From NCBI GenBank assembly GCA_030606215.1, contig JAUWGW010000004.1, positions 1 through 64,000 of the forward strand: 64,000 nucleotides of DNA. The letters are read 5' to 3'. This stretch comes from a bacterium (GTDB taxonomy: Bacteria; NPL-UPA2; JAUVJM01). The translations under genes were made by a program, and so were the position numbers. Under the pieces are notes generated by a model. The model saw nothing but the letters and a program-made list of their open reading frames with translations. It did no database searches and was not told where the DNA came from. Shown in pieces: positions 6,491-38,585 of this stretch (positions are counted from its first letter, which is position 1; each line of letters starts with the position of its first letter).

Positions 6491-6583
6491 AATCAAACCC
6501 TCTTAGTGTGGGAAAGGTCTCCAGATCTTGACCTAAAATTAATCTCCAGGGGTTCGCAATGACACAGGGTCTGTTGTAGTCCG

Positions 6584-7090
6584 TTATTTAGGACTCAGGA
6601 CCATTGTCATATATCTTCCTTCTACCCTCGGCCCCTGCTCAATCTTTGAAATGGATTCCACATCATGAGCAAGTTTCTCAAGCACACTTCTGCCAATATC
6701 ACGACGGCCCAGTTCTCTCCCGCGAAACATAATTGTGACTTTCACCTTATCGCCCTTCCCAAAAAATTTTTCCGCCTGCCGTAGCTTCACCTGATAATCA
6801 TGTTCTCCAATTGAAGGACGCATCCTTATTTCCTTCACTTCCATAGTCCTGTGTTTTTTTCGCGTCTCTCGGTCGCGTTTGCTCTGCTGATACATATACT
6901 TTCCATAATCCATTATCCTGCAAACAGGTGGAGAGGCTTGAGATGCAACTTCTACCAGGTCAAGCTTGTTTTCCCCTGCGGTTCTCAAAGCTTCAGCAAT
7001 TGGCACTATGCCAGCCTGATTTCCTTCCTTGTCAATAAGGCGGACTTCCTTTACCCGAATAGCCTCGTTAATTCTCGCTTCTTTTACTAT
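6584..7090 (-). CDS. infC: Translation initiation factor IF-3 with a non-ATG start
   Basis: The protein has the IF3 N-domain (INEAIRVKEVRLIDKEGNQ, then KLDLVEV and CRIMDYGKY) and C-domain (EIRMRPSIGEHDYQVK, KVTIMFRGRE). No ATG, GTG or TTG in frame gives the full N-domain. A strong Shine-Dalgarno, AAGGGGGTGAT (7106-7096), precedes in-frame CTG (7093) and ATA (7090); ATT (7072) begins INEAIR. I chose ATA on spacing, giving 168 residues. IF3 genes are known for rare starts because IF3 represses its own translation. An out-of-frame ATG at 7097 opens a 9-codon ORF over the start. Confidence 0.9.
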   Translation of the reverse strand: MVKEARINEAIRVKEVRLIDKEGNQAGIVPIAEALRTAGENKLDLVEVASQASPPVCRIMDYGKYMYQQSKRDRETRKKHRTMEVKEIRMRPSIGEHDYQVKLRQAEKFFGKGDKVKVTIMFRGRELGRRDIGRSVLEKLAHDVESISKIEQGPRVEGRYMTMVLSPK

Positions 7091-7142
7091 CAGACATCAC
7101 CCCCTTATATAATACAGTGGTAGTCAAACTTTGGTAGTAAAT

Positions 7143-8879
7143 TTACGCTTTGTTCTCAATTTCACTTTGCAGTTTTTGAAGAAACTCCTCAAGATTTATT
7201 CTTCCCAGCTCACCCTTAAGATGAGAACGAACTGATACAGTGTCAGAGATCTCCTCCTTCTCTCCAACAACCACAATATAGGGCACCTTTTCCATCTCAG
7301 CCTCTCTCACTTTCAAACCAATCTTTTCTGCCCGGTCATCAAGTTCAACACGGAGCCCCGCATCTCGCATCCTAAGATAAATCTCTCTGGCATACTGCGC
7401 ATATTTCTTACTGATTGTTAGAATCTTTACCTGAACAGGCGCCAGCCATACAGGAAATGCCCCTCCGTAATGCTCTATGAGAATTCCTACGAACCTTTCC
7501 ATTGAACCGAGAACTGTCCTGTGAATCATTACTACAGGATGTGGTTTCCCATCAGCACCTGTATAGTTCACACCAAACCTGCCTGGCAGATTGAAATCAA
7601 ACTGTATTGTTGGTCCCTGCCATCCCTGTCCCAACGCCCCTAAAAGTTTTATATCAATTTTCGGTCCATAGAATACCGCTTCACCTTCAACACGCCTGTA
7701 TGTAAAATTTCTCGCTTCAATCGCTTTTAAAAGATTTTCCTCAGCATTCTGCCACTGCGCATCACTACCTGCAAATTTAGTTGTATCTTTACCGCGAACA
7801 CTCAGGTCAATTTCATAATCTGTAAAACCAAAACTTTTCAACATGAAAGCCGCAAGGTCCAGAACAGCAACAAGTTCATCAAGTACCTGTTCAGGTGCGC
7901 AGAAAATATGCGCATCATCCTGAGTAAAACCTCGCACGCGGAACATCCCGTGAAGGACACCTGTCCGCTCCTGCCTGTAGACTGTGCCAAGTTCGGCATA
8001 CCTGATAGGAAGTTCCCTGTAACTGTGTCTCTGCCTCTGATAAATGAGAATATGACCAGGGCAGTTCATCGGTTTTAGAACATATTCTCCATTACTGGTG
8101 TTAAGGAAATACATATTCTCACGGTAGAATTCGTAATGCCCTGAAACCTGCCAGAGATTACCCCTTGCAATGTGCGGGACCGAAACAAGCTCATACCCGC
8201 GTTTGATATGTTCAGCCTTCCAGAAATCTTCGATGACAGAGCGGACAGCCATTCCCTTAGGATGCCAGTAAACAAGCCCTGCGCCCGCTTCTTCGTGGAA
8301 GCTGAACAGGTCCAGTTCCCGCCCTAATTTCCTGTGGTCACGCTTTTTTGCCTCTTCAACAGCTTCCAGGAACCGCTCAAGTTCATCCTGTCCAGCAAAG
8401 GCTGTCCCATATATTCGCTGAAGACTCTCTCTCTTCTCATCTCCACGCCAGTAGCTAGAAGCCACGCTTAACAGTTTAAAAGCTTTTAACTCACCTGTCC
8501 TTTTTAGATGCGGTCCCCTGCATAAATCTATAAAATTTCCCTGCTGGAAAAGAGTGACTTTGTCGTCCTCTATCTCACCAAGTAATTCTATTTTATAATT
8601 TTCCCCGAGGTCTTTAAAAATTTTGAGCGCCTCCTCCTTTGTAACCGCCTGCCTTTTGAAAGGCAGGTCTTCCGCAGCAATCTCTCTCATTTTATTTTCA
8701 ATAAGCTCAAGGTTATCTTGAGTAAAAGGCGTCTTAACTGCAAAATCATAGTAAAAACCGTCAGCTGTCGCAGGACCAATACCAAGTCTAACTTCTGGGA
8801 AAAGGTCCTTAACAGCCTGTGCAAGCACATGAGAAGCGCTGTGACGAAGGATACTCAACTGGTCAGAATCTTGTTCCAT
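7143..8879 (-). CDS. thrS: Threonyl-tRNA synthetase lacking the TGS domain
   Basis: The 578-residue enzyme has the editing domain with HSASH near the start and CRGPHL, the class II core with the zinc ligand motif MNCPGH, LHGMFRVRGFTQDDAH, HRTVLGSMERF, and the C-terminal anticodon domain (LAPVQVKILTISKKY). The start is ATG at 8879 (MEQDSDQLSILRHSASH). Upstream in frame is tRNA-Val sequence, so nothing further belongs to the protein. ThrRS normally has a 60-residue TGS domain before the editing domain; it is missing here. tRNA-Val ends 19 bases upstream. Confidence 0.95.
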   Translation of the reverse strand: MEQDSDQLSILRHSASHVLAQAVKDLFPEVRLGIGPATADGFYYDFAVKTPFTQDNLELIENKMREIAAEDLPFKRQAVTKEEALKIFKDLGENYKIELLGEIEDDKVTLFQQGNFIDLCRGPHLKRTGELKAFKLLSVASSYWRGDEKRESLQRIYGTAFAGQDELERFLEAVEEAKKRDHRKLGRELDLFSFHEEAGAGLVYWHPKGMAVRSVIEDFWKAEHIKRGYELVSVPHIARGNLWQVSGHYEFYRENMYFLNTSNGEYVLKPMNCPGHILIYQRQRHSYRELPIRYAELGTVYRQERTGVLHGMFRVRGFTQDDAHIFCAPEQVLDELVAVLDLAAFMLKSFGFTDYEIDLSVRGKDTTKFAGSDAQWQNAEENLLKAIEARNFTYRRVEGEAVFYGPKIDIKLLGALGQGWQGPTIQFDFNLPGRFGVNYTGADGKPHPVVMIHRTVLGSMERFVGILIEHYGGAFPVWLAPVQVKILTISKKYAQYAREIYLRMRDAGLRVELDDRAEKIGLKVREAEMEKVPYIVVVGEKEEISDTVSVRSHLKGELGRINLEEFLQKLQSEIENKA

Positions 8880-8898
8880 AACTAAACACCATATTTGA

Positions 8899-8975
8899 TG
8901 GTGGGCGCAAGTGGACTTGAACCACTGACCCCCTGCGTGTCGAGCAGGTACTCTAACCAACTGAGCTATGCGCCC
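8899..8975 (-). tRNA. tRNA-Val (GAC)
   Basis: The 77-nt gene folds as a full cloverleaf with acceptor GGGCGCA/TGCGCCC, anticodon loop TCGACAC (anticodon GAC) and T-loop TTCAAGT. The 3' CCA is encoded. It is the last of three tRNA genes upstream of thrS. Confidence 0.96.
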
Positions 8976-8997
8976 GTGATACACCGAGCATTTACCA

Positions 8998-9087
8998 TGG
9001 TGCCGGGAGCCGGACTTGAACCGGCACGAAGCTTAAAACTTCAGTGGATTTTAAGTCCACTGCGTCTACCAATTCCGCCATCCCGGC
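8998..9087 (-). tRNA. tRNA-Leu (TAA)
   Basis: The 90-nt gene has acceptor GCCGGGA/TCCCGGC, anticodon loop CTTAAAA (TAA) and a long variable arm, as expected for tRNA-Leu. CCA is encoded. Its first base directly follows the CCA of tRNA-Cys with no spacer. Confidence 0.96.
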
Positions 9088-9162
9088 TGGAGGCGGCACG
9101 CGGATTCGAACCGCGGAATCGGAGATTTGCAGTCTCCTGCCTTACCACTTGGCTATACCGCC
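9088..9162 (-). tRNA. tRNA-Cys (GCA)
   Basis: The 75-nt gene has acceptor GGCGGTA, anticodon loop CTGCAAA (GCA) and T-loop TTCGAAT, with CCA encoded. It heads the Cys-Leu-Val tRNA cluster and abuts tRNA-Leu. Confidence 0.96.
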
Positions 9163-9174
9163 ATTCACAGCATA

Positions 9175-9203
9175 AAACTAACATACCACGTATACAGTGT
9201 CAA
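9175..9203 (-). promoter_or_regulatory. Promoter of the tRNA-Cys/Leu/Val-thrS transcription unit
   Basis: A perfect TTGACA (9203-9198) is followed after 17 bp by TAGTTT (9180-9175) on the minus strand. Initiation would be about six bases before tRNA-Cys. No other convincing promoter was seen before thrS, so thrS may be co-transcribed with the tRNAs. Confidence 0.5.
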
Positions 9204-9239
9204 TAAGAAAACTCGTCGCAGAGCCCACCCATTAAAGAC

Positions 9240-11276
<2,037 letters not shown>

Positions 11277-24099: not shown

Positions 24100-24134
24100 C
24101 AGGCAGATTATGTGGTATTTTTACTACATGCCTG
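24100..24134. promoter_or_regulatory. Imperfect dyad at the end of the activator gene; candidate enhancer site
   Basis: Outer arms CAGGC/GCCTG enclose ATGTGGTA-tttt-TACTACAT (one mismatch). The centre is about 145 bp upstream of the predicted sigma-54 start, the usual range for binding by NtrC-type activators. No T-run follows on the minus strand, so a terminator is less likely. Confidence 0.35.
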
Positions 24135-25494
24135 ATTTTGGTTCTATGTCTAACTTCTTCAACTTCTCATAAAAATTTTTTCTATCCATACCTGAAAGCT
24201 TAGCGGCTTCTGTTATATTCCCACCAGTAGCTCTGAGTATCCCTGTAAAAAATTCTCTCTCAAACGATTCAAGAACTTCTTTTTTCGCATCCTGATACGA
24301 ATCTATCTTAATATTATCCCACTTCCTGAGTGAAAGGTCAAGAGGAAGATCTTTATTCTGGAGGATTTTTCCTCTCGCGAGGACAACAGCCCTCTCTATA
24401 ACATTTTCCAGTTCCCTGACATTACCAGGCCAGTCATAACTGGATAGCAGCTTCATTGCAGACGGTGAAATCTCTTTTATCTCTTTCCTGAGCTCGCGAC
24501 TGTATAGACTCAGGAAATACTTCGCAAGAAGGGGGATATCTTCCGGTCTCTCCCTTAAAGGCGCTAACTCAATCGGAACTACATTTAAACGATAATACAG
24601 GTCTTCACGAAAAGTCCCTTCCCCTATTGCCTTCTTTAAATCCATATTCGTTGCCGCAATAATCCGCACATCAACCCGAATAGTTCTTGTCCCGCCAACC
24701 CTCTCAAACTCCTTTGTCTCAATCACCCTCAGCAAACTACTCTGAAGAGCCTGACTCATAGCACCAACCTCATCCAGAAAAAGGCTCCCCCCATCAGCCA
24801 GTTCAAATCTCCCCCTATGGTCCGTATGAGCACCTGTGAAAGCTCCCTTAACATGTCCGAATAATTCTGATTCAAGAAGTGTTTCTGAAAGAGCCGCACA
24901 ATTGACAACAATAAATGGCCTCTCAGCTCTTTTCCCGCCGAAATGTATAGCTCGGGCAACAAGTTCTTTCCCTGTGCCACTCTCACCACATATAAGAACC
25001 GTGCTTTTTATATCAGCTACTTTTCCGATAAGTTCAGAGACTTCCTGTATCTGCGGGCTTGCGCTGATTATATTGAATTTAGTTTTTAGCTCCTCCTGTT
25101 GAAATTCTTTCTCTTTGACGAGGCGCTCTACATTTAGAGCTCTTGACACTATAAGTTTCATTTCCTCTACATCAAAAGGCTTGAGAATATAATCGTATGC
25201 GCCCTGCTTCATAGCTTCCACTGCTGTCGCAACAGTCCCGTAGGCAGTCATTATAATGACAGGCAGTTTCTCATCAAGTTCTCTGATTCTCCTGAGCAGT
25301 TCCATTCCGTCCATCACGGGCATTTTCATGTCCGCAATAACAAGATGAAATGCAGCTTCGGAAATCTTTTTTATAGCTTCTTCCCCATTTTTTGCTTCTG
25401 CCACAGAATACCCTTCCTCCTCAAGAGCTATCTGCAAGACCCGGCGCATCTTCAGTTCATCATCAACCACAAGAATATTCACCGCTCCGCTCAC
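24124..25494 (-). CDS. NtrC-family sigma-54-dependent response regulator
   Basis: The 456-residue protein has a receiver domain (acidic D11-D12, phospho-acceptor D55, K105), an AAA+ domain with Walker A GESGTGKE (170-177) and the sigma-54 contact loop GAFTGA (217-222), and a Fis-type helix-turn-helix (residues about 420-456, GGNITEAAKLSGMDRKNFYEKL). All catalytic residues look intact. It is the last gene of the ten-gene operon and its partner kinase lies 19 bases upstream. The nearest target candidate is the sigma-54 promoter just downstream. Confidence 0.96.
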   Translation of the reverse strand: MSGAVNILVVDDELKMRRVLQIALEEEGYSVAEAKNGEEAIKKISEAAFHLVIADMKMPVMDGMELLRRIRELDEKLPVIIMTAYGTVATAVEAMKQGAYDYILKPFDVEEMKLIVSRALNVERLVKEKEFQQEELKTKFNIISASPQIQEVSELIGKVADIKSTVLICGESGTGKELVARAIHFGGKRAERPFIVVNCAALSETLLESELFGHVKGAFTGAHTDHRGRFELADGGSLFLDEVGAMSQALQSSLLRVIETKEFERVGGTRTIRVDVRIIAATNMDLKKAIGEGTFREDLYYRLNVVPIELAPLRERPEDIPLLAKYFLSLYSRELRKEIKEISPSAMKLLSSYDWPGNVRELENVIERAVVLARGKILQNKDLPLDLSLRKWDNIKIDSYQDAKKEVLESFEREFFTGILRATGGNITEAAKLSGMDRKNFYEKLKKLDIEPKSGM

Positions 25495-25513
25495 AACTTT
25501 CTTTCCTCTGTCC

Positions 25514-27127
25514 CTATTTTTTTAGCCTTACTGTGAAAACACTTCCCTCATTAATCCTGCTTTTAACGGTAATTATCCCGTTGTGAGTTTCAATAATTTT
25601 ATGGACAATCGAAAGTCCTAACCCCGACCCTTCATCCCTTGTAGAAAAAAACGGGTTGAAAATCTTCCCGAGTATTTCTCCTGGAATACCAATACCTGTA
25701 TCAGCAAAACTTACCTCAACATAATTCCGATGAGAACCTATCTTAACTGCAAGCTTCCCTCCATCCGGCATTGATTCGACAGCATTTATTATCAGATTTA
25801 AAAATGCCTGCGAAAGCTGTTCCGAATCAACTTTTGCCGGAGGCATGTGAGCTTCAAAATCTTTTTCAATTTTGATATGCGCACCCGATAACCTTGGTTC
25901 TGCAAGATGAAGACTCCTCTCCACAATATCCTCTATTCTTCCTTCTTCCAGATTCAATTTTCTCGGTCTTGCAAAATCCAGGAAATTACTGACAACTCTG
26001 TCTAATCTATCAACCTCTTCCATTATGAAACTCGTCAGTTCCTTCGCTTTCTCATCCCCTCCGGCATTTTTCTTTAGAACCTGAGCTGAGCTTTTGATAA
26101 TTCCAAGCGGATTTCTTATTTCATGAGCCACACCAGCAGATAGTTCCCCGAGCGCGGCGAGCCTATCCTTCCTCCGCAATTCTTCTTCAAGCTGTCTCAA
26201 CTCTCTCAGCTTGCCTGTCATATGGTTGAATGCATTGCTTAATTCTGCAAGTTCCTCACTTGACCTGATATTCATTTCCTGATCCAAATCTCCTTCCGCT
26301 ACTGCGTGCACACCCCTTGCAAATAGTCTGATAGGGTTGGATATATGTTTTGCCATTGCATAACCAAGACCCCCTGCCATAATAATGCAAAGTCCGAGCA
26401 AAACCGGGAAAAAATACCACGTGGTCGTAGTTTCCGAAAACCCGTAGCGTTTTGGAATACCGAAGAAAATCATACCGGCAATCCTGCCTTCTCCGGTTCT
26501 GAGAGGCTGATAATACGCCTCATATTTCACTCCCTGAAACAAAGCGTTCTTATCATAATAAGCTTCCCCCCGACGGAAAGCTTCCTCCATCAACTCTACC
26601 TGTGTGCCGGGAGTCCGGCGTGATTCACCTTTCCTATAAAGAACATTAACTTCAACATCAGTAAGAAGGGACATATCCTGCGCAAAACTTTTCCCGAGCT
26701 GATAACCGATTATTAAATCGCCGAGATAGTTCCCATCATAAGATACGGAGGTAACTGCACCCGCAATTAGAGCTTCCGGCTTCTCAAGCTGGATGATATC
26801 CTTCCCATATGAATTCTTCTTCCCCCCATCTACCACCCACAGGATAAGAGGGTGCCCTGTCTGAATTACCCGCGGTGTCTCTCCACTGCGCAGGGAAGCT
26901 ATAAAACCTGGATTATCAATCAAGAATTTCGCAATCTGTTCAGCACGGTTTTCATAATCCTGGACTATTTTCATTGTCTTCTCAGACGCTTTCCTGATAT
27001 CACTCTCCTTTTGCTTCTCAAGCCTTTTTGCATTCATACTGACTACGATGACTGTTGATAGAAGCATCGGGATAAGCCCTATGAACAAAAAAGCCGCTAT
27101 GAGTTTATTCTGAAGTTTCGCTAACAT
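25514..27127 (-). CDS. Membrane sensor histidine kinase
   Basis: The 537-residue protein has a membrane segment (8-30), a periplasmic sensory domain of about 200 residues with a Cache-like pattern (PLILWVVDGGKKN, EAYYQPLRTGEGRIAGMIFFG), a second membrane segment (236-259), HAMP, a HisKA box with H335 (ELSAGVAHEIRNPLG) and an HATPase domain (NLIINAVESMPDGG, DTGIGIPGE, GSGLGLSI). The start at 27127 overlaps the upstream gene by 23 bases. It should phosphorylate the NtrC-type regulator next to it. Confidence 0.93.
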   Translation of the reverse strand: MLAKLQNKLIAAFLFIGLIPMLLSTVIVVSMNAKRLEKQKESDIRKASEKTMKIVQDYENRAEQIAKFLIDNPGFIASLRSGETPRVIQTGHPLILWVVDGGKKNSYGKDIIQLEKPEALIAGAVTSVSYDGNYLGDLIIGYQLGKSFAQDMSLLTDVEVNVLYRKGESRRTPGTQVELMEEAFRRGEAYYDKNALFQGVKYEAYYQPLRTGEGRIAGMIFFGIPKRYGFSETTTTWYFFPVLLGLCIIMAGGLGYAMAKHISNPIRLFARGVHAVAEGDLDQEMNIRSSEELAELSNAFNHMTGKLRELRQLEEELRRKDRLAALGELSAGVAHEIRNPLGIIKSSAQVLKKNAGGDEKAKELTSFIMEEVDRLDRVVSNFLDFARPRKLNLEEGRIEDIVERSLHLAEPRLSGAHIKIEKDFEAHMPPAKVDSEQLSQAFLNLIINAVESMPDGGKLAVKIGSHRNYVEVSFADTGIGIPGEILGKIFNPFFSTRDEGSGLGLSIVHKIIETHNGIITVKSRINEGSVFTVRLKK

Positions 27128-28388
27128 ACCCGAGTCTTTCCCTGAGACGGTTCTGCAAGTTTTGAGGGAACTCTCCCTCAAGAACTCGCTTCACAACGGA
27201 ATCCCTCATTACCTTGAACGGGGGTAATCTATAATTCTCGTTATCACCATATTTCTCCATATACTTTTTCCATATAAGCTTCGCAAGATTCTCAAGCCCG
27301 GCTGATTTCTCATCATCACCAATTGCAAGCGACATAAGTGCCTGTCTCAATATCCCATGAATCAGCGCTGACATTTCAAGCGGAGAAGCTCCCTTGATAT
27401 TTTCTCTTATACGGGCGAATATATAGTCTTCAAAGGGCAGACGATAGTGAACAGGGTTTAATTTCCGCAGTCTCCTGTAGCACTCAAGAGATTTCCTGTT
27501 CTGACCATAGGTATAAAGAAGCATCACAGATGATTGAAGAAAATTTTCATGTGCTGATGCTAACCCAGTTTCTCTTCCGTACTTCTCCATCATCTCACGG
27601 TAGAGGCGGTCTGCAGTATCTAAGAACCTGAAATCCGGTTCTGTTAGAATAAACCCCGCAGGTGTTCTGACAAACCTCCCTGTCTCACACAAGCTAATGA
27701 CTGCGTGAAGGATGAGTCTGTCGTAGTTGAGAGCTTGTTCTTCCCCGGAAACCTCAACTCCCTTTGTAAGCCAGTATATAGCATGGGACTGTGCCAGCCT
27801 CCAGTCAAGCGGCCCATAAATTTCCGTCAGTTCCAACATACGCTCCGGTTCAAGTTTCAACTCCTCCATCTCTTCAGAAAGTTTCATCTTGTAATACCAG
27901 TGAAACCTATCATGAAACTTGCCAATCTTATGAAGATATATCCACGCAAGTTCGCGGTAAAGCAGAGTGCTTCTCGGATTATATTTTAACCCCTCATCTC
28001 TCAACAATTCAATCCCGCGTTTTATCCAGGTCCAGCGTTCCTCCGCAGACGGCAATTCCACTGATATATTATAAGCCATGTTCCATGCATTATGCCCCCA
28101 GACCATCTCCATTCTCGGCTCCATCTTCCCTATCCAATCATAAATCTGGACCAGTTCAAAGAATTTGCCTGAGCGTTGTAACTCCATCGCCCTGATCCAG
28201 AGATAGTCCACAATAATGCCGCGAAATCCTCCAAGAGCCGTTGTCGCAAGGACAAGTTCAGGTGGAGCGCTTTCAAAAGGCGATGACAAAAGTTGGAACT
28301 CATCTCTTCCCTCATTCAGCTTCCCCAAACACAGGTGTGTAAGGGAGAAAAACACTACTATGAGAAGAAGAATAACTACACGCTTCAT
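27105..28388 (-). CDS. Conserved envelope protein of unknown function, TPR-like
   Basis: The 427-residue protein has an N-terminal signal or anchor (residues 5-22), then helical repeats resembling TPRs. The best-marked block is TTALGGFRGIIVDYLWIRAMEL followed by QIYDWIGKMEPRMEMVWGHNAWNMAYNIS, then LYRELAWIYLHKIG. I recall this block in PVC-type genomes beside ABC permeases, with no assigned role. It is flanked by the ABC permease (6-base gap) and the sensor kinase (overlap), so it is probably part of the same membrane machine or its signal input. Confidence 0.6.
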   Translation of the reverse strand: MKRVVILLLIVVFFSLTHLCLGKLNEGRDEFQLLSSPFESAPPELVLATTALGGFRGIIVDYLWIRAMELQRSGKFFELVQIYDWIGKMEPRMEMVWGHNAWNMAYNISVELPSAEERWTWIKRGIELLRDEGLKYNPRSTLLYRELAWIYLHKIGKFHDRFHWYYKMKLSEEMEELKLEPERMLELTEIYGPLDWRLAQSHAIYWLTKGVEVSGEEQALNYDRLILHAVISLCETGRFVRTPAGFILTEPDFRFLDTADRLYREMMEKYGRETGLASAHENFLQSSVMLLYTYGQNRKSLECYRRLRKLNPVHYRLPFEDYIFARIRENIKGASPLEMSALIHGILRQALMSLAIGDDEKSAGLENLAKLIWKKYMEKYGDNENYRLPPFKVMRDSVVKRVLEGEFPQNLQNRLRERLGYVSETSE

Positions 28389-28394
28389 ATTGCC

Positions 28395-29651
28395 TCACAG
28401 GTATCCCATATTTGCCAGCTCACGACGGTTGAATATAAGATGCGCAATAACTCCAATCATCCCACAGCGTAATAAAACTATTGCCGCAAATCCCTTCAAA
28501 ACCACAGCCCATCTAATTAAAATGCCGCTTACTACATATGGGACAGGGTCGTATGCTCTCAAATCCGGGAAAACCTTCAATCCGGCTGCCAAAAATTTTC
28601 TTACAAATGCAGTGGTCAATCCAGTGTGACCGGAGTCCAATCCCACCTCAGGAAATAAAAAACTCTGTTTTAGAAGCGCATCAATAAACGGAAAACTGAG
28701 ACTCATCACAAGTACAAATATAGAAAGCAATGTCGCTACAGGGAATGTCAGAAATGTAGATGAAGCCAATCCAACAGCCGAAATAAAAGTAACTCTCAAA
28801 AGTATCAGAAGTATCCCGCGAAACAAGTTCCCGCCAAATCCACCCGCGCGGTAAAGAACAATTACATCGTCATGAGGGAATATTGCTGTAACACCGCTCG
28901 GGGAAATGTTCATAAACTTCACATTGAGTCTTCCCTCAGGAGAAACAACTGACGCAGGAACCTGAAATTCATGAAATGTCCCCCCAGGGAAGGCAGTTGT
29001 CTGCCGGTAAAAACCCCTCTCCATATTCCCAACTGTCCAGACGCCGGCTATTTCAACATTTGGAGCACCTGAGGAGAAATTTCTGAACTTTATATGAATG
29101 ATGTCCTCAGACGGTTTTATCCCGTGAAATTCCCATTCCCGCTCATGGTGCGGCAGGACAACAAATGTAGACTTTTTACCCTCAATAGCTTTCGGTTTTG
29201 TCTCTACCCTCGCAGTCACAACCTGCGTTTTGATCTTAAATTGCTCCTGCTCCCCCCCTTCAACGGGTCTTGCAATATATTTCACAAGTCCATAAATTGC
29301 TCCTCCCGCGCATACAAGCAGTACCATATTAAGCGCCACCACACCAACCCATTTCCCTGCGAGAACTTCCCATCTCCTCACAGGTTTTGTGTCAATTGTG
29401 AATATAGTCTTATCGCGGATATCAGCACAGAACGTTGAAGTTGACAGGAATATCGTCAGAAGAGATAGAACAATGTTCAGAACGCTGAGCGAATAGGCAA
29501 GTGTTATCTGAACCTTCCCTTTCTGTGTATCACTTTCCAGGGTAAATGGGATTGAGACAACTACTGCTATGAGGAAAAACACAAATGCTATTACAAGTTT
29601 CATCCTCATCCCGTGACGAATTGTGTTAATTGCAATAGCCAGTAATTTCAT
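28395..29651 (-). CDS. ABC-2-type transporter permease with a large extracytoplasmic insert
   Basis: The 418-residue protein has an N-terminal membrane segment (IAFVFFLIAVVVSIPF), two or three segments around residues 45-115 with the ABC-2 motif TKPVRRWEVLAGKWVGV, a soluble beta-rich insert of about 150 residues (115-270), then three or four C-terminal segments. The insert is unusual for an ABC-2 permease and would lie in the periplasm. Its start overlaps the ATPase stop as ATGA, so the pair should form one transporter. Confidence 0.8.
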   Translation of the reverse strand: MKLLAIAINTIRHGMRMKLVIAFVFFLIAVVVSIPFTLESDTQKGKVQITLAYSLSVLNIVLSLLTIFLSTSTFCADIRDKTIFTIDTKPVRRWEVLAGKWVGVVALNMVLLVCAGGAIYGLVKYIARPVEGGEQEQFKIKTQVVTARVETKPKAIEGKKSTFVVLPHHEREWEFHGIKPSEDIIHIKFRNFSSGAPNVEIAGVWTVGNMERGFYRQTTAFPGGTFHEFQVPASVVSPEGRLNVKFMNISPSGVTAIFPHDDVIVLYRAGGFGGNLFRGILLILLRVTFISAVGLASSTFLTFPVATLLSIFVLVMSLSFPFIDALLKQSFLFPEVGLDSGHTGLTTAFVRKFLAAGLKVFPDLRAYDPVPYVVSGILIRWAVVLKGFAAIVLLRCGMIGVIAHLIFNRRELANMGYL

Positions 29652-30589
29652 TCGTTCTCTGTTAGTCTTTTGATGACAGACTTCCTGGGTGGTGGTGACT
29701 CAGCTTCTTCAGTCCGGGTTATCTGCTCTTTCCCTCCTGGAGACTCAAAACTGTGGACTGTTTCAAGGAAAAACTCTTCCAGAGATTCCATCGGCTTTGT
29801 TAGTTCTGCCTCAGCCCCTTTCTCCTCTTCATTTATAATGTTTAGAACCTTTTCGACTGTTTCTTTGGAAATGTTAGATGCTGAAATCTGAGTAACATCC
29901 TTCATTGTGAGGAGTTCATCTACTTTCCCCTCTGCAATTAACCTGCCTTCGTAGAGGATTGCGATTCTATCACACACGTCTTCAACATCAGCAAGGAGGT
30001 GACTTGAGAGAAAAACAGTTTTTCCTCTCTTTTTCAGCTTCAGAATGAGGTCTTTCACCTCCCGCCTCCCTACCGGGTCAAGTCCACTTGTTGCCTCATC
30101 AAGAATCAGGAGGTCAGGGTCATTAATCAGAGCCTGCGCAAAGCCGATTCTCCTCGCCATACCTTTTGAATACTCGCCCACGGGGCGGGTTCTTGATGGA
30201 GCTAACCCTAACATCTTCAGGAGTTTCTCCCCGCGCTTCTTTCGTTCACCTGAGGGCAGTTCAAAAAGCCGCCCATAAAAATCCAGGGTCTCGCCGGCAT
30301 TGAGATAGTTGTAGAAATAGGACTCTTCAGGGAGGAAACCGACGCGTGTTTTTGACAGGCTATCCCTTGGAGATAATCCGAAAATCCTTACAATCCCCGA
30401 AGTGGGGAAAAGAAGTCCGAGCATGAGTTTTATCGCTGTGGTTTTACCAGAACCATTTGGACCAAGCAAACCAAATACTTCGCCGCCATGTACGGTAAGG
30501 TTTAAATTATCAACGGCTCGGACCTTGTCTCTGTGCCAGAAATCCTTGAATACTTTTGTCAGCCCTATAGTCTCAATAACAGGTTTCAT
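29648..30589 (-). CDS. ABC transporter ATP-binding protein
   Basis: The 313-residue ATPase has Walker A (GLLGPNGSGKTTA), the Q-loop region, signature YSKGMARRIGFAQAL, Walker B (LLILDEATSGLDP) and the H-loop SSHL. The C-terminal about 90 residues are charged and proline-rich. The ATG at 30589 starts MKPVIETIGLTKVF. It probably powers the adjacent permease (28395-29651), and perhaps also the second ABC-2 permease at the head of the operon. Confidence 0.9.
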   Translation of the reverse strand: MKPVIETIGLTKVFKDFWHRDKVRAVDNLNLTVHGGEVFGLLGPNGSGKTTAIKLMLGLLFPTSGIVRIFGLSPRDSLSKTRVGFLPEESYFYNYLNAGETLDFYGRLFELPSGERKKRGEKLLKMLGLAPSRTRPVGEYSKGMARRIGFAQALINDPDLLILDEATSGLDPVGRREVKDLILKLKKRGKTVFLSSHLLADVEDVCDRIAILYEGRLIAEGKVDELLTMKDVTQISASNISKETVEKVLNIINEEEKGAEAELTKPMESLEEFFLETVHSFESPGGKEQITRTEEAESPPPRKSVIKRLTENE

Positions 30590-30605
30590 ATTCAGAAATT
30601 CAACT

Positions 30606-32501
30606 TCACTGGGTGTATCCAACAAGGCGTGCGCTGTTGAACACAACTACTAATGAAATAACCATGTAGAAAATAGCCGCTATAATCGGGGTAAGAATCC
30701 CCGCGCCAGAAAGTGTCAATCCACCAATTATGCATAAGACTGCAAAGGCAAGATTCTGATAGACAATTCGCATCGCCCTCCGTGAGAGTTTTATCAGAAA
30801 AGGCAGCCGCCCCAAATCAGAGCTCATAAGAGCAATTGTCGCACTGTTTATCGCTACATCACTCCCTGCAGCGCCCATTGCCACCCCGATATCTCCAGCC
30901 GCCAGCGCAGGCGCATCATTCACACCATCACCCACAACAGCTACTCTGTGCTCCCTTTTCTTCATCTCACCGACTAATTGAAGTTTTCTCTCGGGCAGAC
31001 ATTCAGCTTCAAACTGAGTGCACCCAAGCTCATCTGAAACCCTCCTCGCTACCGGTTCCTTATCACCGGTAAACATCATCACCTCTCTGAGCCCGAGTTT
31101 TTTGAGTTCATCAACTGCATCCCTCGCCCCAGACCTCGTCCTGTCCTCAAGCCCGACACAACCTATACACTTCCCACCCTTCGCTACGAAAAGAGCGCTC
31201 AGCCCTTCCATTCCGCTGCTCTGAATGAGATTCGTGTCAACACCCTGCTCGGCTAACCATCGCTCCCTGCCAATGTGGACTGCCTCCCCTTTGAGAACTG
31301 CCGTCACGCCTCTCCCTGCTACCTCCTTGAAATCCCTGCATTCATCAAATTCAAGTTCCGCTTCTTTCGCTACCTGAACAATCGCCTTAGCCATCGGGTG
31401 ATTACTATGCCTTTCAACCGAACCGGCTATCCTGAGAAGTTCCTCAGCAGAAACATTTCCCGCAGGGAGAAGGCGTTTCACAGCAAGCTCCCCGGTTGTA
31501 AGTGTTCCTGTCTTATCAAATGCAATTGCAGTCAGCCCCCCTGCCAGTTCAATATCCCCGACATTTTTGATAAGGACACCCATCCTCGCCGCACACGCAA
31601 GAGCGGCCACCATTGCTGTTGGCATTGCGAGTATTACCGCAGTTGGGCAGCTGACAACAAGAGCCGTGATTGCTCTTGTTGTCTCGCGTGTGAAGAAAAA
31701 TATTGTCCCTGCAACCATTACTACAACAGGCGTATACCAGCCCATGTAGCGGTCCATCATACGCATTATTGGGAGTCTCGTCTCTTGAGCCTGAATTATC
31801 AGCGTTCTGACTCTTCCAAGAATCGTTTCCGTTCCTGCCCTTATCACCCTGACCCTCAGAAGAGAAGTGAGATTAGTTGTGCCTGCAAATATATCATCCC
31901 CTTCAGTCTTATCAGCCGGCATAGACTCTCCTGTAATTGTCGCTTCATTTATTGCACTTGCTCCCTCAAGAATCACACCATCTGCAGGCACGTTTTCACC
32001 AGGACGTATTAATATGATTTGTCCCGGAGAAAGTTTCTCCGCAGGAATTTCCACTTCAGACCCATCTTCTCTCAAAAATCTTGCCTTTCTCGGACTTAAA
32101 ACAACTAATTTCTCAAGTGCGGCGTGAGCTCCAATAGCCGCCCTCCTTTCCACAAGTTCTGCTATCAGCATAAAGAAAGCCACAATACCTGCTGTCTGAT
32201 AATCTTGAAGTGCAAAACAGGCAATGAGAGCCAGCGCTACAAGTTCAGACATCCTCTGTTCACCGCGAATAAGGCCGCCTGCCGCATTCCAAATAATTGG
32301 AACACTCAAAATAACCGCTCCAATCATAGCGCTTATAGCGCTGATTTGAGCTTCACCGAAAAAAGCATCCGCAAGGAACGAGTTAATTACAAGAGCCGCC
32401 CCAAGAAAAGTTCCTGTCAGGCGGAGCATTACCCTCCGCTCTCTTGCCTCAACAGGTTCTTTATTTTTCCGGTCCAATGATATACCTGATTTCTCCTTCA
32501 T
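30606..32501 (-). CDS. P1B-like metal-transporting P-type ATPase with a CPT motif and no HMA domain
   Basis: The 631-residue pump has TGES (190-193), the metal-site motif C285-P-T287 in VVSCPTAVILAMP, phosphorylation site DKTGT (D329), the SNHPMAKAI HP motif, MFTGD and GDGVNDAPAL. Most heavy-metal pumps have CPC, SPC, CPH or TPC; CPT is rare, and the usual N-terminal metal-binding domain is absent. The substrate cannot be assigned. It overlaps the HflK-like gene by 41 bases. Confidence 0.88.
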   Translation of the reverse strand: MKEKSGISLDRKNKEPVEARERRVMLRLTGTFLGAALVINSFLADAFFGEAQISAISAMIGAVILSVPIIWNAAGGLIRGEQRMSELVALALIACFALQDYQTAGIVAFFMLIAELVERRAAIGAHAALEKLVVLSPRKARFLREDGSEVEIPAEKLSPGQIILIRPGENVPADGVILEGASAINEATITGESMPADKTEGDDIFAGTTNLTSLLRVRVIRAGTETILGRVRTLIIQAQETRLPIMRMMDRYMGWYTPVVVMVAGTIFFFTRETTRAITALVVSCPTAVILAMPTAMVAALACAARMGVLIKNVGDIELAGGLTAIAFDKTGTLTTGELAVKRLLPAGNVSAEELLRIAGSVERHSNHPMAKAIVQVAKEAELEFDECRDFKEVAGRGVTAVLKGEAVHIGRERWLAEQGVDTNLIQSSGMEGLSALFVAKGGKCIGCVGLEDRTRSGARDAVDELKKLGLREVMMFTGDKEPVARRVSDELGCTQFEAECLPERKLQLVGEMKKREHRVAVVGDGVNDAPALAAGDIGVAMGAAGSDVAINSATIALMSSDLGRLPFLIKLSRRAMRIVYQNLAFAVLCIIGGLTLSGAGILTPIIAAIFYMVISLVVVFNSARLVGYTQ

Positions 32502-33495
32502 CGCCCTTCCCGATAATAAATCTTTCCTCAGTTCCAGCTATAACCTCTCCAATCACTTCCTGGTAGAGCTGATTCAGAAAAACATTGAGTCTTTCCGGCT
32601 CCCCGGGATATTCTCGCAAAAGGTCCTGCAGATACTGCGCATCCGCCTTCGCAGATTCAACTACCCTTGTTTTGTATGTTGCTGCCTCTGATATCACTCT
32701 TGCGGCTTCGCCTTTGACTTCATTGACTATACGGCTTGCGTAGGCACGCGCAGAATTTATATTTTTACTACTCTCCTGCTCAGCACGGATCACAGAATTG
32801 AATGCGTCCCTCACCTGCTGTGGAGGCATCATTTCTCTCAGGTCAACACCTTCAATGAAAAGACCGATATTCCTGCGTTCAAGCTCCCCGAGGATACCAA
32901 CCTGCACCTTTCTCCTCAACTCATCAACGTTTGTTCTGAGCGCCTCATCCACTCCAAAATTAGAAGTTTCACGAATAACAGAATTCTTCGCAATTATCGC
33001 AAGCACTTTTTCCGGCTCCTCCGCAGAAGTAATATAAGCTACGGGGTCAGCTATTGTGTATCTAATTGCCCATCCTGAATGGACTATATTCCCATCCCCT
33101 GTGAGACAGTATTCATCTAACCCCGGATATAACTTGTCAGCCACTTTCCTTTGCCCTCCCCGCGTCTTCTCCAGCTCTCCGGGCATAAAGGATACCTCTA
33201 TACTGTGAACACGCGCCACAGGTATGATTATGTGCTCATCAATGGGGAAAGGCCATGCCCAGTGCAGACCAGGTTCAAGAACAGTCCCCGCCATCGCTCC
33301 AAACCTGAGTACAATCCCGGCTTCATGCTGCTCTACAACAAATATCCCGGATGTCAAATAAAGAATTAAAACTCCTGCCATAATCACTTTCAGAATGTTA
33401 AAGCTGAGTCTCAGAGCATCTGAGAGAGAACTCCTCGCAACCTCAACCGTCCCCCCGGGCGCTTGATTTTCCCCACCGTTCATTTCATCACTCAT
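32461..33495 (-). CDS. SPFH/band-7 protein, HflK-like
   Basis: The 344-residue protein has a hydrophilic N-terminus, one membrane segment (about 34-55) and an SPFH domain (VEQHEAGIVLRFGAMAGTVLEPGLHWAWPFPIDE), then a helical region rich in A, E and K (NEVKGEAARVISEAATYKTRVVESAKADAQY). It resembles HflK, which forms large cage-like rings with HflC around FtsH. No ftsH is present here. It overlaps the next SPFH gene by 8 bases. Confidence 0.88.
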   Translation of the reverse strand: MSDEMNGGENQAPGGTVEVARSSLSDALRLSFNILKVIMAGVLILYLTSGIFVVEQHEAGIVLRFGAMAGTVLEPGLHWAWPFPIDEHIIIPVARVHSIEVSFMPGELEKTRGGQRKVADKLYPGLDEYCLTGDGNIVHSGWAIRYTIADPVAYITSAEEPEKVLAIIAKNSVIRETSNFGVDEALRTNVDELRRKVQVGILGELERRNIGLFIEGVDLREMMPPQQVRDAFNSVIRAEQESSKNINSARAYASRIVNEVKGEAARVISEAATYKTRVVESAKADAQYLQDLLREYPGEPERLNVFLNQLYQEVIGEVIAGTEERFIIGKGDEGEIRYIIGPEK

Positions 33496-34381
33496 TTAAT
33501 TCAGGCATTCCTTCCAGCAAATCATATGGAGGCATACCGGTATCCAGGACAATTGTTGTTTTCTCTTTAAGCGTATCTCTTAAAGCATCAAGTTTCCTGA
33601 GGAATATTGCAAGTTCTTCGTTTTCTGAAAAAACACCATAATACTTTGCCGCAAGCGCATCCCCTTCACCCATTATTCTCTTTGCTTCCGCCTCCGCCAT
33701 TGCAAGAATTCTGTCTCTCTCACTTTCTGCCTCAGCTCTGATCTTATTCGCTTCACCCTCACCTTCAGCGCGGTAGCGTTCTGCAATCCGTTCTCTCTCC
33801 TTCCTCATCCGCTCAAAAACCTTCGCAGTTGTATCCTCAGGAAGCGCCATCTGTTTTATCCTGACAAACTCAACACCAATACCATACCGTTCCTCAGTCT
33901 CGGTTGAGACAAGTTTTAGCATCTCCTCTTCAATCTCATCAAACTGTAAGCTCCCGGAATCTGTAGATATAAAATGGTTCAGGGGATGTCTTCCTATAAC
34001 TGCATTTTTATAATTCCTCAGAACGCTCTGCAAATTTTTCTCAGCTTCAAGTTCTGTCCCAACACTCTCTAAGAATTTAAGAGGGTTCTGAATCCTCCAG
34101 GCAAGAGATGCAGTAATAATGAGGTTTTTGCCATCCCTCGTATATGTTTCCTCAAATTTGCTGTCAAGAACCTTCAGGCGAGAATCAAATCTGTAGAGAG
34201 ATTGTATTGGCCATGGCCATTTCCAGTAAAGCCCCGGTTCACTCAAAACAAGAACAGGTCTGCCAAATGTTGTAAGGACAACCTGCTCATTGAGCCTTAC
34301 CTGGAAAGCAATAAGGTAAAGCGCGAGAATTACGAGAATTATTCCAGCAGTTATAATTGTAAAAATGTTCTTTTTCATCAT
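33488..34381 (-). CDS. SPFH/band-7 protein, HflC-like
   Basis: The 297-residue protein has an N-terminal membrane segment (6-27), an SPFH domain (NEQVVLTTFGRPVLVLSEPGLYWKWPWPIQ) and a long charged coiled coil (ERMRKERERIAERYRAEGEGEANKI) that matches HflC. It should pair with the HflK-like protein. It begins directly at the end of the large SPFH gene, which implies coupled translation of all three SPFH subunits. Confidence 0.9.
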   Translation of the reverse strand: MMKKNIFTIITAGIILVILALYLIAFQVRLNEQVVLTTFGRPVLVLSEPGLYWKWPWPIQSLYRFDSRLKVLDSKFEETYTRDGKNLIITASLAWRIQNPLKFLESVGTELEAEKNLQSVLRNYKNAVIGRHPLNHFISTDSGSLQFDEIEEEMLKLVSTETEERYGIGVEFVRIKQMALPEDTTAKVFERMRKERERIAERYRAEGEGEANKIRAEAESERDRILAMAEAEAKRIMGEGDALAAKYYGVFSENEELAIFLRKLDALRDTLKEKTTIVLDTGMPPYDLLEGMPELNE

Positions 34382-36247
34382 TTACTCCTCCATTTCTGTC
34401 AAATCAATATCCAGAAGTTCAGGTCTGAGTTTCTCTTTCATATCTACAATTGTAACCTGATGAGCTTTAGCTTTCTCAGGCACAACATATTTCCTGAGGT
34501 TCTTCAGCTTTTCTTCAAGCGCATCCAGAAACTTTCTCATTCGATAAACCTTCTTGCAAGATTTGTCTGCGGAATATTGTTTCATGAACTGCTCTGCTCT
34601 CGCACCTGCCACCGTTTGCCGGCGGAACTTGTACGCAGAAGCTTCCGTTTTCAGCACCTTTTCCTGATACTCAGCTAATGGGATGATTTTGTTTCTGTAA
34701 GATTCCGCCGCAAGTACACTTGTATGTTTCTCCTCAATTGCCCCCACCACTTCCTCAAAGGCACCTGCAACCTCTACAGGAGGATGAACATTTTCAAAAC
34801 CAACATATAATATTTCCAGCCCAAGTTCCGCGTGCTCACACGCATCTGCTATACGACGAGCCAGATGTTTTGAAGCCTGTAATCTACCCGGGCCCATTAT
34901 GTCAAATAAGTCAACGCTCACCATGAAGCGCACAAGTTCCCTTGACGCGATACTCTCAAGAACTTTCACAGGGTCCTGTTTTTTATAGAGAAAAGTCCGT
35001 AAATCATTTATGCGATATTGAATATCAACAGAGGTGTTCAAAAAATTAACAGGGACAGCCTCTAAATCTTCCCTTTCCCCTGAAACTGTCTCACTGCTGG
35101 CAACAATGAGATTATTCACGCCGCAGCCATGTTCCACAGTCCACAAAATTACATCCCTGTGCGCTCCATGCGCTTCATGTCTTCCACGCTCTCCATGCAC
35201 ACCTATTGTCACCGTCTCAATTCGTCTCGTCGGATATTTGAAAACACTCTCAACAGGCCACGGTAATTTGAAATGAAGTCCCGGCTCAAGTATATCGTCA
35301 GCGGGACTCCCGAATCTTTCCACTATTGCAGTCTCTTCCGGATTGACAACAACTATACATGTGAGACCGTAAAATGCAATTATCTGGAAAAGGATGATTG
35401 GCGCTATCGCCCTTTCAAGGAATCTGTAGAACCACGTCTGGGAAATTTCAAGTCCGAACTGGTAGTCCAGAGCTTCAGCTACTGTTTTGAGCGCTCCGGA
35501 AGGTCTCGCCAGCATCCTGAGCATCCTGCTGGAATACGGCGGATGATATTCAAGAGACGGGACCCTTGGCCTGTAAATATGGAGGATAAAGTTCAAAACC
35601 AGCTCAATTCCCAGTATTCCTGCCACCAGCGGAATTGCGAAAGAAATAAATTTTTCAACCTTCGGCAATCCTAAATAAATCGTTACCAATCCACAGGAAA
35701 CTGCTATGGAACATATTGCGCAGAGTATGGATATTGCTCCACCTGCCTCAATTAACCTCCACCGTGCAGCAGTCGCAAGCCCACTTGCATATCTCCCAAA
35801 AATAAACAGAACAAACGCAATTCCGGCAACTCCAGCTGCCGCGGCAGCAGTTCTTCCAATGCCGGCTTCTAACAAGGGGAAAATACCTGCAAATTTCAGA
35901 AGAGGCACAGCAGCCATGTAGAATGCTATCAGGAGAGAAACGCCGGGTAAGAACCACCGCTCCATTTGTCTGAGGCGCACCTTTGCACTGAAAGAGTCAT
36001 AACTCTCATCTTCAAAAAGATGTGAACTTTTTGGCGCTTTCTCCTTCAGAGCTTTGACATTATCCTCTTCAACAGTTACAAGAAACTTCTGTCTCAGGTG
36101 GATGAATACAACTCCCCAGATAAGTCCGGACCCAAAGATAAGAAGAGACAGAAGAACCGGAGATTGGGTCCCGCTCCAGATACCGAGAAAAGCTGATAGA
36201 CATGAGAATATTATATGTAATACAAAACCAAAAAAAGCTACCTTCAT
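34382..36247 (-). CDS. Polytopic membrane protein fused to an SPFH domain
   Basis: The 621-residue protein starts with about six membrane segments in residues 1-250, including a Gly/Ala-rich one (AAAAAGVAGIAFVLF). A further segment (about 285-305) leads into an SPFH domain (VNPEETAIVERFGSPADDILEPGLHFKLPWPVESVFKYP) and a C-terminal helical region. Ordinary HflK has a single membrane segment, so this is a third, enlarged SPFH paralogue. The first ABC permease overlaps its start as ATGA. Confidence 0.82.
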   Translation of the reverse strand: MKVAFFGFVLHIIFSCLSAFLGIWSGTQSPVLLSLLIFGSGLIWGVVFIHLRQKFLVTVEEDNVKALKEKAPKSSHLFEDESYDSFSAKVRLRQMERWFLPGVSLLIAFYMAAVPLLKFAGIFPLLEAGIGRTAAAAAGVAGIAFVLFIFGRYASGLATAARWRLIEAGGAISILCAICSIAVSCGLVTIYLGLPKVEKFISFAIPLVAGILGIELVLNFILHIYRPRVPSLEYHPPYSSRMLRMLARPSGALKTVAEALDYQFGLEISQTWFYRFLERAIAPIILFQIIAFYGLTCIVVVNPEETAIVERFGSPADDILEPGLHFKLPWPVESVFKYPTRRIETVTIGVHGERGRHEAHGAHRDVILWTVEHGCGVNNLIVASSETVSGEREDLEAVPVNFLNTSVDIQYRINDLRTFLYKKQDPVKVLESIASRELVRFMVSVDLFDIMGPGRLQASKHLARRIADACEHAELGLEILYVGFENVHPPVEVAGAFEEVVGAIEEKHTSVLAAESYRNKIIPLAEYQEKVLKTEASAYKFRRQTVAGARAEQFMKQYSADKSCKKVYRMRKFLDALEEKLKNLRKYVVPEKAKAHQVTIVDMKEKLRPELLDIDLTEMEE

Positions 36248-37200
36248 ACGCTTTCCCTTCCCTCAAAAAGCACTATGGATATTAAAAGGATAGCTGCTGA
36301 ATAGAAAAATCCGTATCCGCTGGCTCCCAAAACATACTTAGCGGGAATCGTCTCACCAGCCACTATCATATCTGCCATCCAGAATACCTGCATATTAGGT
36401 ATCAGCACATATGCGGCTCTCGCAAAGATGTTATCAAACCTTCCAAATATATGGTCTGAAAGAAGCCCGAGCAGAAAGATAGATGCGCAGAACCCAACAG
36501 TCAGAACGACGCTGAATCTGGTTGATATAGCAACCGCCACCGCCGCAATACTCAAAAGAGCAACAAGTATCAGATAGCTTGCTGCCACTACCTGAATGTC
36601 AACATCGGCACAGAACCTCTGAAAATTCAAATCCTTATCAATGAAGCCGAGCAGCACAAACATAAAACTGAAACTCAGAATAGAATATCCAAAACAGGAA
36701 CTGCAGAATGGACGGTCATGAAAATAGTTGGCAAGAGCTGCGAGAAGAATACCAACGGTAAAAGCAAAAATTTCTCCATAAATAACAGGACGATGAAGTT
36801 TTATATATGCCGCCTCCGGAACCCCTATTCTGACTGTCAGTATAAGGATTAAAGTTAGAAGATATGCGGATGCAATTAGAGCGAGTGCAATACCGGTGAA
36901 TTTGCCGAGAATGAACTGCGCTTTTGATACGGGTTTTGTCAGAACCGTCAGGATGGTTTTGTTTTCCATCTCATTTGAAATGACATTTCCAGCAGAAAAT
37001 GCCGCCTGAAGAAGACCTGTAAGCAATATTGTTGCAAGCCCCATATCCTTGAGCAGTTTCACATCGTCCATCAATGTGAACATTGCAAAAGACGGACTCA
37101 GCGCAATCATAAAGGCGCCAATCCCAAGAATAATTACAAAGACCGGCTGCCGCACCGTCTCAGTAAGCGCATTCTTTGCTATCGCAGCTATCTTACCCAT
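36244..37200 (-). CDS. ABC-2-type transporter permease, first gene of the SPFH operon
   Basis: The 318-residue protein has about six membrane segments and the ABC-2 motif (NVISNEMENKTILTVLTKPVSKAQFILGKF) characteristic of NosY/ABC2 permeases. The only ATPase nearby is at 29648-30589, six genes downstream in the same operon. The gene starts the ten-gene run and has a clear promoter 33-61 bases upstream. Confidence 0.85.
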   Translation of the reverse strand: MGKIAAIAKNALTETVRQPVFVIILGIGAFMIALSPSFAMFTLMDDVKLLKDMGLATILLTGLLQAAFSAGNVISNEMENKTILTVLTKPVSKAQFILGKFTGIALALIASAYLLTLILILTVRIGVPEAAYIKLHRPVIYGEIFAFTVGILLAALANYFHDRPFCSSCFGYSILSFSFMFVLLGFIDKDLNFQRFCADVDIQVVAASYLILVALLSIAAVAVAISTRFSVVLTVGFCASIFLLGLLSDHIFGRFDNIFARAAYVLIPNMQVFWMADMIVAGETIPAKYVLGASGYGFFYSAAILLISIVLFEGRESV

Positions 37201-37232: not shown

Positions 37233-37261
37233 ATTATACCCACTCTAAACCAACAGTGCAA
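37233..37261 (-). promoter_or_regulatory. Promoter of the ten-gene SPFH/ABC/P-ATPase operon
   Basis: On the minus strand TTGCAC (37261-37256) and a perfect TATAAT (37238-37233) are separated by 17 bp. The leader to ATG 37200 is about 25-30 nt. No sigma-54 motif was seen here, so the operon itself appears to use the housekeeping sigma factor. Confidence 0.6.
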
Positions 37262-37419: not shown

Positions 37420-37448
37420 TTCGCAGATAACAAAAGTTGTGTTATGAT
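37420..37448 (+). promoter_or_regulatory. Possible promoter of the PPC-like secreted protein gene
   Basis: TTCGCA (37420-37425) and TATGAT (37443-37448) are 17 bp apart on the plus strand. The distance to ATG 37491 allows a leader of about 35 nt carrying AGAGGAGG. The match at -35 is weak. Confidence 0.35.
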
Positions 37449-37490
37449 AACAATGAACACAGGGCAAGACAACCAGAGGAGGCAAATGAA

Positions 37491-38585
37491 ATGAGGACGG
37501 AAATTTTGTCGAAAGTACTACAAATCTTTCTGATAGTGCTTATATTGGGGATTTTCGTTGTTGCCGGCAGAGCAGAGGACTATAAGATGCCTTCTTCATC
37601 TATGGAAGCGGCTCAAGCATTACCGAGGGGTGGTAACAGTTTTGAAACCGCGGTTAAGATAAAACCTGGAAGTTATCAAAGGGGCGTCTTAGAAGAGAAC
37701 GAATACTTTTGTGTTGCTGGTATAAAACCGGGCCAGGAAATCAATATTAAGTATACCTTTGGTGCTGGGACTGGTAAGCATGGATGGGGTAACCTGAGTT
37801 TATACGATGAAGATAGAACAATATTATTTGGCCACTTTGATATGGTTGGCAAGGGAGGATCGAAATCAATTACAGTTTCTTGGCTGCCAAATACAGATAA
37901 AGATTCTTACAAATATTATATCCATACAGGATATAGCGATTACGATGTGGGTCCAGTCTCATTTGATATCTCGTTGACAAATTATTATGATGCCGGAAGC
38001 CAGACCGATGCCGGAGGTACGTTTGAGAAAGCAATGAGTATTACCGCTGGAAACTACAAAGCTTATCTTTCAGGAGAAGAAGCGGGCACAGATACTAAAG
38101 ATTTCTACAAGATGGCCGTTAAAAAAGGAGAAATGTTAACTGTTAAAGTTGTTCCACCGAGCGAGGCAAGCCCGAGTTTGAAAATATACAATAGCGACAG
38201 AGTGATAATTAAACAAGTATTCGCTCCAAATCCAGGAGCAATTGTTCGAGCTTCTTTGACTGCAAAGAAAAGCGAAAAAATTTTCGTTGCCGTTCTTTGT
38301 GATGGATGTGGCAGCAAAAACGTGGCTGAGTATTCATTAGGTATTACAATTCAGCCACCGCCAGAAGAGGAAGTAGTGCTACCGGAAGAAGAGATAACGC
38401 TACCCGAAGAAGGAGTACCATCGGGAGAAGCACCGGAGCCGATAGCGCCAAAGGAAGCAAAAGAAGTAGCAAAAGCTGTTGGGAAAGGAATCGCTGTGAG
38501 AATAATTCTTTGGATTGTATTCTCGCTTGTTCTCCTTATAATAATCGGAGTAGTTGTTTATTCCCTTTTGAAAAAGAAAACATAA
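37491..38585 (+). CDS. Secreted, membrane-anchored protein with two PPC-like beta domains
   Basis: The 364-residue protein has a signal peptide (FLIVLILGIFVVAGRAED), two beta-sandwich domains with PPC-like openings (GNSFETAVKIKPGSYQRGVLEENEYF and GGTFEKAMSITAGNYKAYLSG), a Pro/Glu-rich linker (about 300-330) and a C-terminal membrane segment ending KKKT. It would be held in the inner membrane with its domains outside. It is divergent from the SPFH operon. Role unknown. ATG 37491 is preceded by GGAGG. Confidence 0.65.
   Translation: MRTEILSKVLQIFLIVLILGIFVVAGRAEDYKMPSSSMEAAQALPRGGNSFETAVKIKPGSYQRGVLEENEYFCVAGIKPGQEINIKYTFGAGTGKHGWGNLSLYDEDRTILFGHFDMVGKGGSKSITVSWLPNTDKDSYKYYIHTGYSDYDVGPVSFDISLTNYYDAGSQTDAGGTFEKAMSITAGNYKAYLSGEEAGTDTKDFYKMAVKKGEMLTVKVVPPSEASPSLKIYNSDRVIIKQVFAPNPGAIVRASLTAKKSEKIFVAVLCDGCGSKNVAEYSLGITIQPPPEEEVVLPEEEITLPEEGVPSGEAPEPIAPKEAKEVAKAVGKGIAVRIILWIVFSLVLLIIIGVVVYSLLKKKT

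Follow-up and report, generated by a model that had tools for sequence, protein, structure and literature searches.

Which proteins, apart from the protease FtsH, might a bacterial SPFH cage enclose? HflK and HflC are the partners of FtsH, proteins of their type build a periplasmic cage around it, and to our knowledge the other clients of bacterial SPFH cages are largely unknown. The question is raised by a 64,000-nucleotide stretch of bacterial DNA (hereafter the window), in which three SPFH genes stand in a row with genes for a P1B-type ATPase and an ABC-2 transporter.

The locus and its conserved unit

Between positions 24124 and 37200 lie ten open reading frames, all on the minus strand and in the order given by a preliminary description of this DNA (Table 1). 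The identities proposed there are borne out by Pfam and TIGR matches to ABC2_membrane_2, Band_7 (all three SPFH proteins), E1-E2 ATPase/TIGR01525, ABC_tran, and the kinase and regulator domains, as is the tight spacing: adjacent genes mostly share a few bases or are separated by no more than 19, some apparent overlaps of 41–77 bases being due to upstream alternative starts. The single promoter proposed at 37233–37261 stands only in part; TTGCAC-17-TATAAT is present there, but its −35 element matches at three of six positions and the promoter scan omits the site. The operon region is no richer in promoter-like sites than chance predicts (23 found, against 19.5 ± 5.4 in shuffles), and a search for a Fur/Zur-like site gave one palindrome upstream of the window operon that did not recur near the operon of the sister genome G003. 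A perfect palindrome spotted by eye, TGTTATGATAACA (37440–37452; chance expectation 0.06 with one mismatch allowed), lies near the start of a divergent 382-residue frame (37437–38585; TTG start; no Pfam match); as a regulator site it is only a lead.

Table 1. Genes of the ten-gene locus, in operon order, with the evidence for each assignment
Gene product	Length (aa)	Position	Strand	Evidence
perm1, ABC-2 permease	318	36244..37200	(-)	ABC2_membrane_2, E 7e-9
SPFHp, polytopic HflK-like SPFH protein	621	34382..36247	(-)	Band_7, E 7.5e-16; TIGR01933 hflK, 138 bits
HflC-like SPFH protein	297	33488..34381	(-)	TIGR01932, 147.1 bits, over cut-off
HflK-like SPFH protein	344	32461..33495	(-)	TIGR01933, 169.3 bits, over cut-off
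P1B-type ATPase	631	30606..32501	(-)	TIGR01525, 520.9 bits, over cut-off; motifs; tree
ABC ATPase	332 (from TTG start)	29648..30646	(-)	ABC_tran, E 9e-27
perm2, ABC-2 permease, predicted NosY fold with jelly-roll insert	418	28395..29651	(-)	AF2 model; NosY match
TPR protein, predicted N-terminal membrane anchor	427	27105..28388	(-)	AF2 model; one TM at 4-22
Sensor histidine kinase		25514..27181	(-)	HAMP, HisKA, HATPase_c, sCache_3_3
NtrC-type response regulator		24124..25494	(-)	Response_reg, Sigma54_activat, HTH_8

Scanning genome contigs with SPFHp as a single sequence returned no relative; scanning named genomes with a five-sequence SPFHp alignment yielded 216, full-length relatives among them. 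The best 80 of these 216 loci were fetched; picked by similarity to the window SPFHp rather than at random, they come mainly from Verrucomicrobiota, with others from Planctomycetota, Omnitrophota and Calescibacteriota. The cluster is collinear in all 80, and 33 carry all eight genes from perm1 to the TPR gene. perm1 lies upstream of SPFHp in 77 loci (70 on the same strand, 7 inverted), and the ABC gene directly follows the ATPase gene in 39 of the 50 loci with room for it there; in the remaining 11, which are split, the TPR gene was found elsewhere in the genome ten times, mostly adjoined by perm2. The inverted perm1 genes (L125, L131, L133, L137, L156, L164 and L176) are mostly from Planctomycetota. 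Clustering of flanking genes revealed no ninth conserved gene, every flanking family being confined to 5 or fewer of the 80 neighbourhoods.

Other samples give a concordant picture. The sister genome has the first eight genes in order, followed by neither kinase nor regulator; a genome of another family (G006) keeps perm1-SPFHp-HflC-HflK-ATPase up to its contig end; and two genomes of a domain-wide sample of 290 (G235 and G258) carry the full set of eight, ordered as in the window, without two-component genes. G264, G280, G156 and Proteobacteria contain the SPFH-P1B half only. The preliminary description had counted the kinase and regulator as the operon's own, a claim we abandon: they are missing from G003, G235 and G258 and from the region downstream of the cluster in 80 of 80 loci. 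The two-component system is an addition in the window's lineage, outside the conserved unit, its late gain there being read from its absence elsewhere.

The halves of the operon also travel together across genomes. Among 337 genomes from the phylum of one Verrucomicrobiota locus, SPFHp occurs in 138 and the long TPR protein in 173, with both in 128, neither in 154, SPFHp alone in 10 and the TPR protein alone in 45 (Fisher p 7e-41, uncorrected for kinship). Where the two share a contig they mostly lie 6.8–6.9 kb apart, the spacing of an intact operon. In the other samples the figures were 7 of 7 genomes for G258's phylum and, with full-length matches alone counted, 4 of 44 for G235's. A search across PVC/Omnitrophota genomes, the check suggested at the outset, thus finds order and linkage kept far beyond the window, and the contrary case, in which the genes would occur separately in relatives without conserved linkage, is contradicted by the 80 collinear loci. 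We conclude that perm1, SPFHp, HflC, HflK, the P1B ATPase, the ABC ATPase, perm2 and the TPR protein are encoded by one ancient conserved operon, in gene set, in order and in co-inheritance.

A known four-gene core and the origin of its pump

Half of the eight-gene operon is already known from Pseudomonas, as a zinc-starvation cluster. In P. aeruginosa, PA2434–PA2439 (the hmtA cluster) comprises the P-type ATPase HmtA and three HflK/HflC-type genes (PMC4542158), the same three SPFH genes plus P1B-type ATPase that form the core in the window, and differs from the window in lacking an ABC-2 transporter and a TPR protein. HmtA has been reported as a zinc and copper importer (PMC4542158, PMC8531726), although a review regards the import direction as unconfirmed (PMC10393844). 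Zur binds the promoter of the cluster, which is upregulated when znuA is mutated or zinc is depleted (PMC4542158, PMC8531726); proteomics partly agrees (PMC11761036). This zinc-responsive expression is known for P. aeruginosa only (PMC4542158, PMC8531726, PMC11761036). One survey of the SPFH proteins in P. aeruginosa reports an operon of three, PaFlo5–7 (strain PA14), and does not mention an ATPase (PMC13086221); we infer that PA2437–2439 are PaFlo5–7. The preliminary description, which knew of no described system with this set, needs correcting for the middle four genes, which match the hmtA cluster (PMC4542158, PMC13086221). For the whole it holds: beyond the P. aeruginosa zinc papers and the SPFH surveys, we found no description of the eight-gene combination in the open-licence literature.

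The SPFHp-HflC-HflK-P1B ATPase cassette also resides on plasmids of Burkholderia, Paraburkholderia, Rhizobium and Klebsiella, and the window's four-gene order, adjacent and on the same strand, equals that of the plasmid loci L040–L043; on the Paraburkholderia plasmid it has zinc-importer genes and a copper chaperone gene close by. The HflC tree groups the eight-gene loci in one clade (support 100/98), which the four-gene loci, proteobacterial plasmid clusters included, join at 100/99. Outside fall canonical HflC, the second copy in the window's genome among them, and the SPFH trios that have no ATPase. In the ATPase tree, for which one misread outgroup row (G004, branch length 10) was ignored, the eight-gene loci are again one clade (100/100), and SPFH-linked pumps separate from the CopA and ZntA types at 100/99, except L109. 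The ATPase and HflC of the hmtA-type plasmid clusters thus each share a clade (100/99) with those of the window, HmtA itself lying outside the comparison. A single clade for all SPFH-linked pumps was rejected (AU test, p 0.003) because L109 groups with CopA; this locus (4591–9361, in G272) pairs an SPFH trio with a CopA-side P-type ATPase of 1040 residues and is a case in which such a trio recruited its pump separately. The HflC and ATPase trees agree and therefore support a stepwise origin, in which an SPFH trio would have gained first the P1B ATPase, then the ABC-2/TPR module and last, only where the window belongs, the two-component system. An altered metal site would be part of that last step.

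That alteration bears on what the window's pump does. Like the ZntA and CopA P1B ATPases, it has intact DKTGT, TGES and GDGVNDAP motifs and scores over the TIGR01525 cut-off. Nearly all SPFH-linked ATPases combine CPC with a histidine in the last transmembrane segment (LHN/LHV), where ZntA types have Asp and CopA types Met, and many carry 5 to 19 histidines among their first 80 residues. The window protein instead has CPT and FYM, and that of the sister genome CPT and FYT: both lack the His-rich N-terminus, and tyrosine replaces the histidine. The hmtA-type plasmid ATPases have CPC where the window has CPT; the CPC-plus-His signature is absent from the window's ATPase. Its intact catalytic motifs and a dN of 0.17 against a dS of 1.8 (dS near saturation) argue that the gene has been kept while its site changed; by this measure it is under purifying selection despite the loss of the CPC and His metal-site residues. 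Because CPC, His and the His-rich N-terminus are all missing, metal transport by this particular ATPase is doubtful, and the earlier label of metal pump suits most homologues better than the window's own protein.

The ABC-2 transporter and the TPR protein

The ABC ATPase, which likelier starts 19 residues downstream of the TTG, has ABCA transporters and NosF as its nearest solved relatives. perm2 scores just below the ABC2_membrane_2 cut-off in the window, 32 of 32 homologues matching; its AF2 model (pLDDT 90) is predicted to adopt the NosY fold (Z 19–21, well above the next rows), in line with a profile match to NosY (E 6.7e-7). Residues 146–271 are modelled as a periplasmic jelly-roll insert resembling carbohydrate-binding modules, and with its jelly-roll perm2 also resembles LptF/LptG (Z 10–11). 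The 'unknown TPR-like protein' of the preliminary description is indeed modelled as an N-anchored TPR superhelix (AF2, pLDDT 88), and comparison with solved families named none beyond generic TPR proteins. One close known system is NosDFY, an ABC machine that helps mature the copper sites of nitrous oxide reductase: perm2 shares its fold with NosY, and the ABC ATPase is close to NosF. Unlike NosDFY, the window set has two unlike permeases and the jelly-roll insert, and the eight genes include no NosD beta-helix, the TPR superhelix protein taking its place.

These affinities admit a different substrate. The P-type ATPase and an ABCA/NosFY-like transporter could move or extract lipids or lipoproteins in an SPFH microdomain, the metal motif being a relic; the kinship of the ABC ATPase with phospholipid-transporting ABCA proteins, the likeness of perm2 to LptF/LptG and the window ATPase's loss of metal-site residues under purifying selection all point that way. 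We consider such a lipid or envelope role unlikely: nearly all other members retain CPC and His, the ATPase falls inside P1B (TIGR01525), and relatives are zinc-responsive. A defence role was rejected as unsupported, PADLOC returning generic ABC matches only.

A possible cage with transporter clients

Our tentative preference, held with rather less than full conviction and somewhat short of probable, is that the eight gene products form one inner-membrane assembly for metal handling, in which an SPFH cage would surround the P1B pump together with an ABC machine of NosFY type. We infer the cage, the joint complex, the metal substrate and the direction of transport by analogy with known systems. 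The HflC, HflK and polytopic HflK-like subunits would assemble into a cage at the periplasmic face, much as HflK/HflC enclose FtsH. Its clients would be the P1B-type ATPase and a NosFY-like ABC-2 transporter made up of two permeases and one ATPase; the jelly-roll domain of perm2 and the anchored TPR protein would lie on the periplasmic side. Within the enclosure the pump would move a soft metal, of which Zn(II) or Cu(I) is the probable one, and the ABC machine, like NosDFY, might act mechanically on a periplasmic partner, loading, unloading or releasing metal.

Genes that share an operon need not share a complex, and the same genes could encode two machines that are merely co-regulated, the SPFH-P1B half handling metal and the ABC-2/TPR half exporting or remodelling an envelope component. 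The halves lie apart in 11 of 50 loci; the SPFH-P1B half occurs by itself in Proteobacteria, G264, G280 and G156; and, also counting against a single complex, the TPR half occurs without SPFHp in 45 of 337 genomes and a shorter ABC-permease-TPR-permease module without SPFH genes stands alone in other genomes of the window's phylum, a small one covered here by nine genomes. Two such modules, with a shorter TPR protein, are at L073 6027–9763 and L074 6739–9938. Against a mere pairing of machines, 128 of the 138 genomes with SPFHp also encode the TPR protein, as do 10 of the 11 split cases, and perm1 is found beside the SPFH genes instead of its ABC ATPase, an arrangement that links the halves; we regard two machines as possible and lean against them.

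HflK and HflC family models are matched over cut-off by the SPFH trio's HflK-like and HflC-like members, and SPFHp, which matches HflK in solved complexes, has by hydropathy about eight N-terminal transmembrane segments before its Band_7 domain, a polytopic half alike in the window, G006 and three plasmid proteins. The trio departs from HflK-HflC-FtsH in having three SPFH paralogues, one of them polytopic, an HflC outside the canonical clade, and linkage to pumps, not to ftsH. As first described, ftsH is absent from the cluster: no gene family, hence no ftsH, recurs beside it, and the window genome's ftsH is on another contig. The trio might nevertheless still work with this FtsH, the pumps being its substrates, as the partnership of HflK and HflC with FtsH would allow. 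That proteostatic variant seems very improbable, since a canonical hflK-hflC pair is encoded elsewhere in the genome and the operon HflC falls outside the canonical clade (92/90). The canonical pair (L036 8006–11967, on contig 28 of the window genome, G000) has floA directly upstream. SPFH trios that lack a P-type ATPase are common across the domain-wide sample, and in two lineages (L032 9930–14445 and L104 7924–12797) the trio adjoins two ParA/Mrp-type ATPases; in the L032 case Pfam confirms ferredoxin domains.

A bolder form of the one-assembly reading, which we hold to be doubtful, would make the SPFH cage a closed periplasmic chamber in which metal passes between the P1B ATPase and the NosFY-like machine, a second class of cage with transporters rather than a protease as clients. 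No paper in the searchable open-licence literature brings HmtA and SPFH proteins together; HmtA, an unusual P-type ATPase proposed as a metal importer, here gains a conserved cage partner undiscussed in the literature searched. With its fixed order in several phyla and its presence in about four in ten of the genomes sampled from the phylum of one Verrucomicrobiota locus, the operon names concrete candidate clients of an SPFH cage, and so makes the question of what such cages enclose a testable one.
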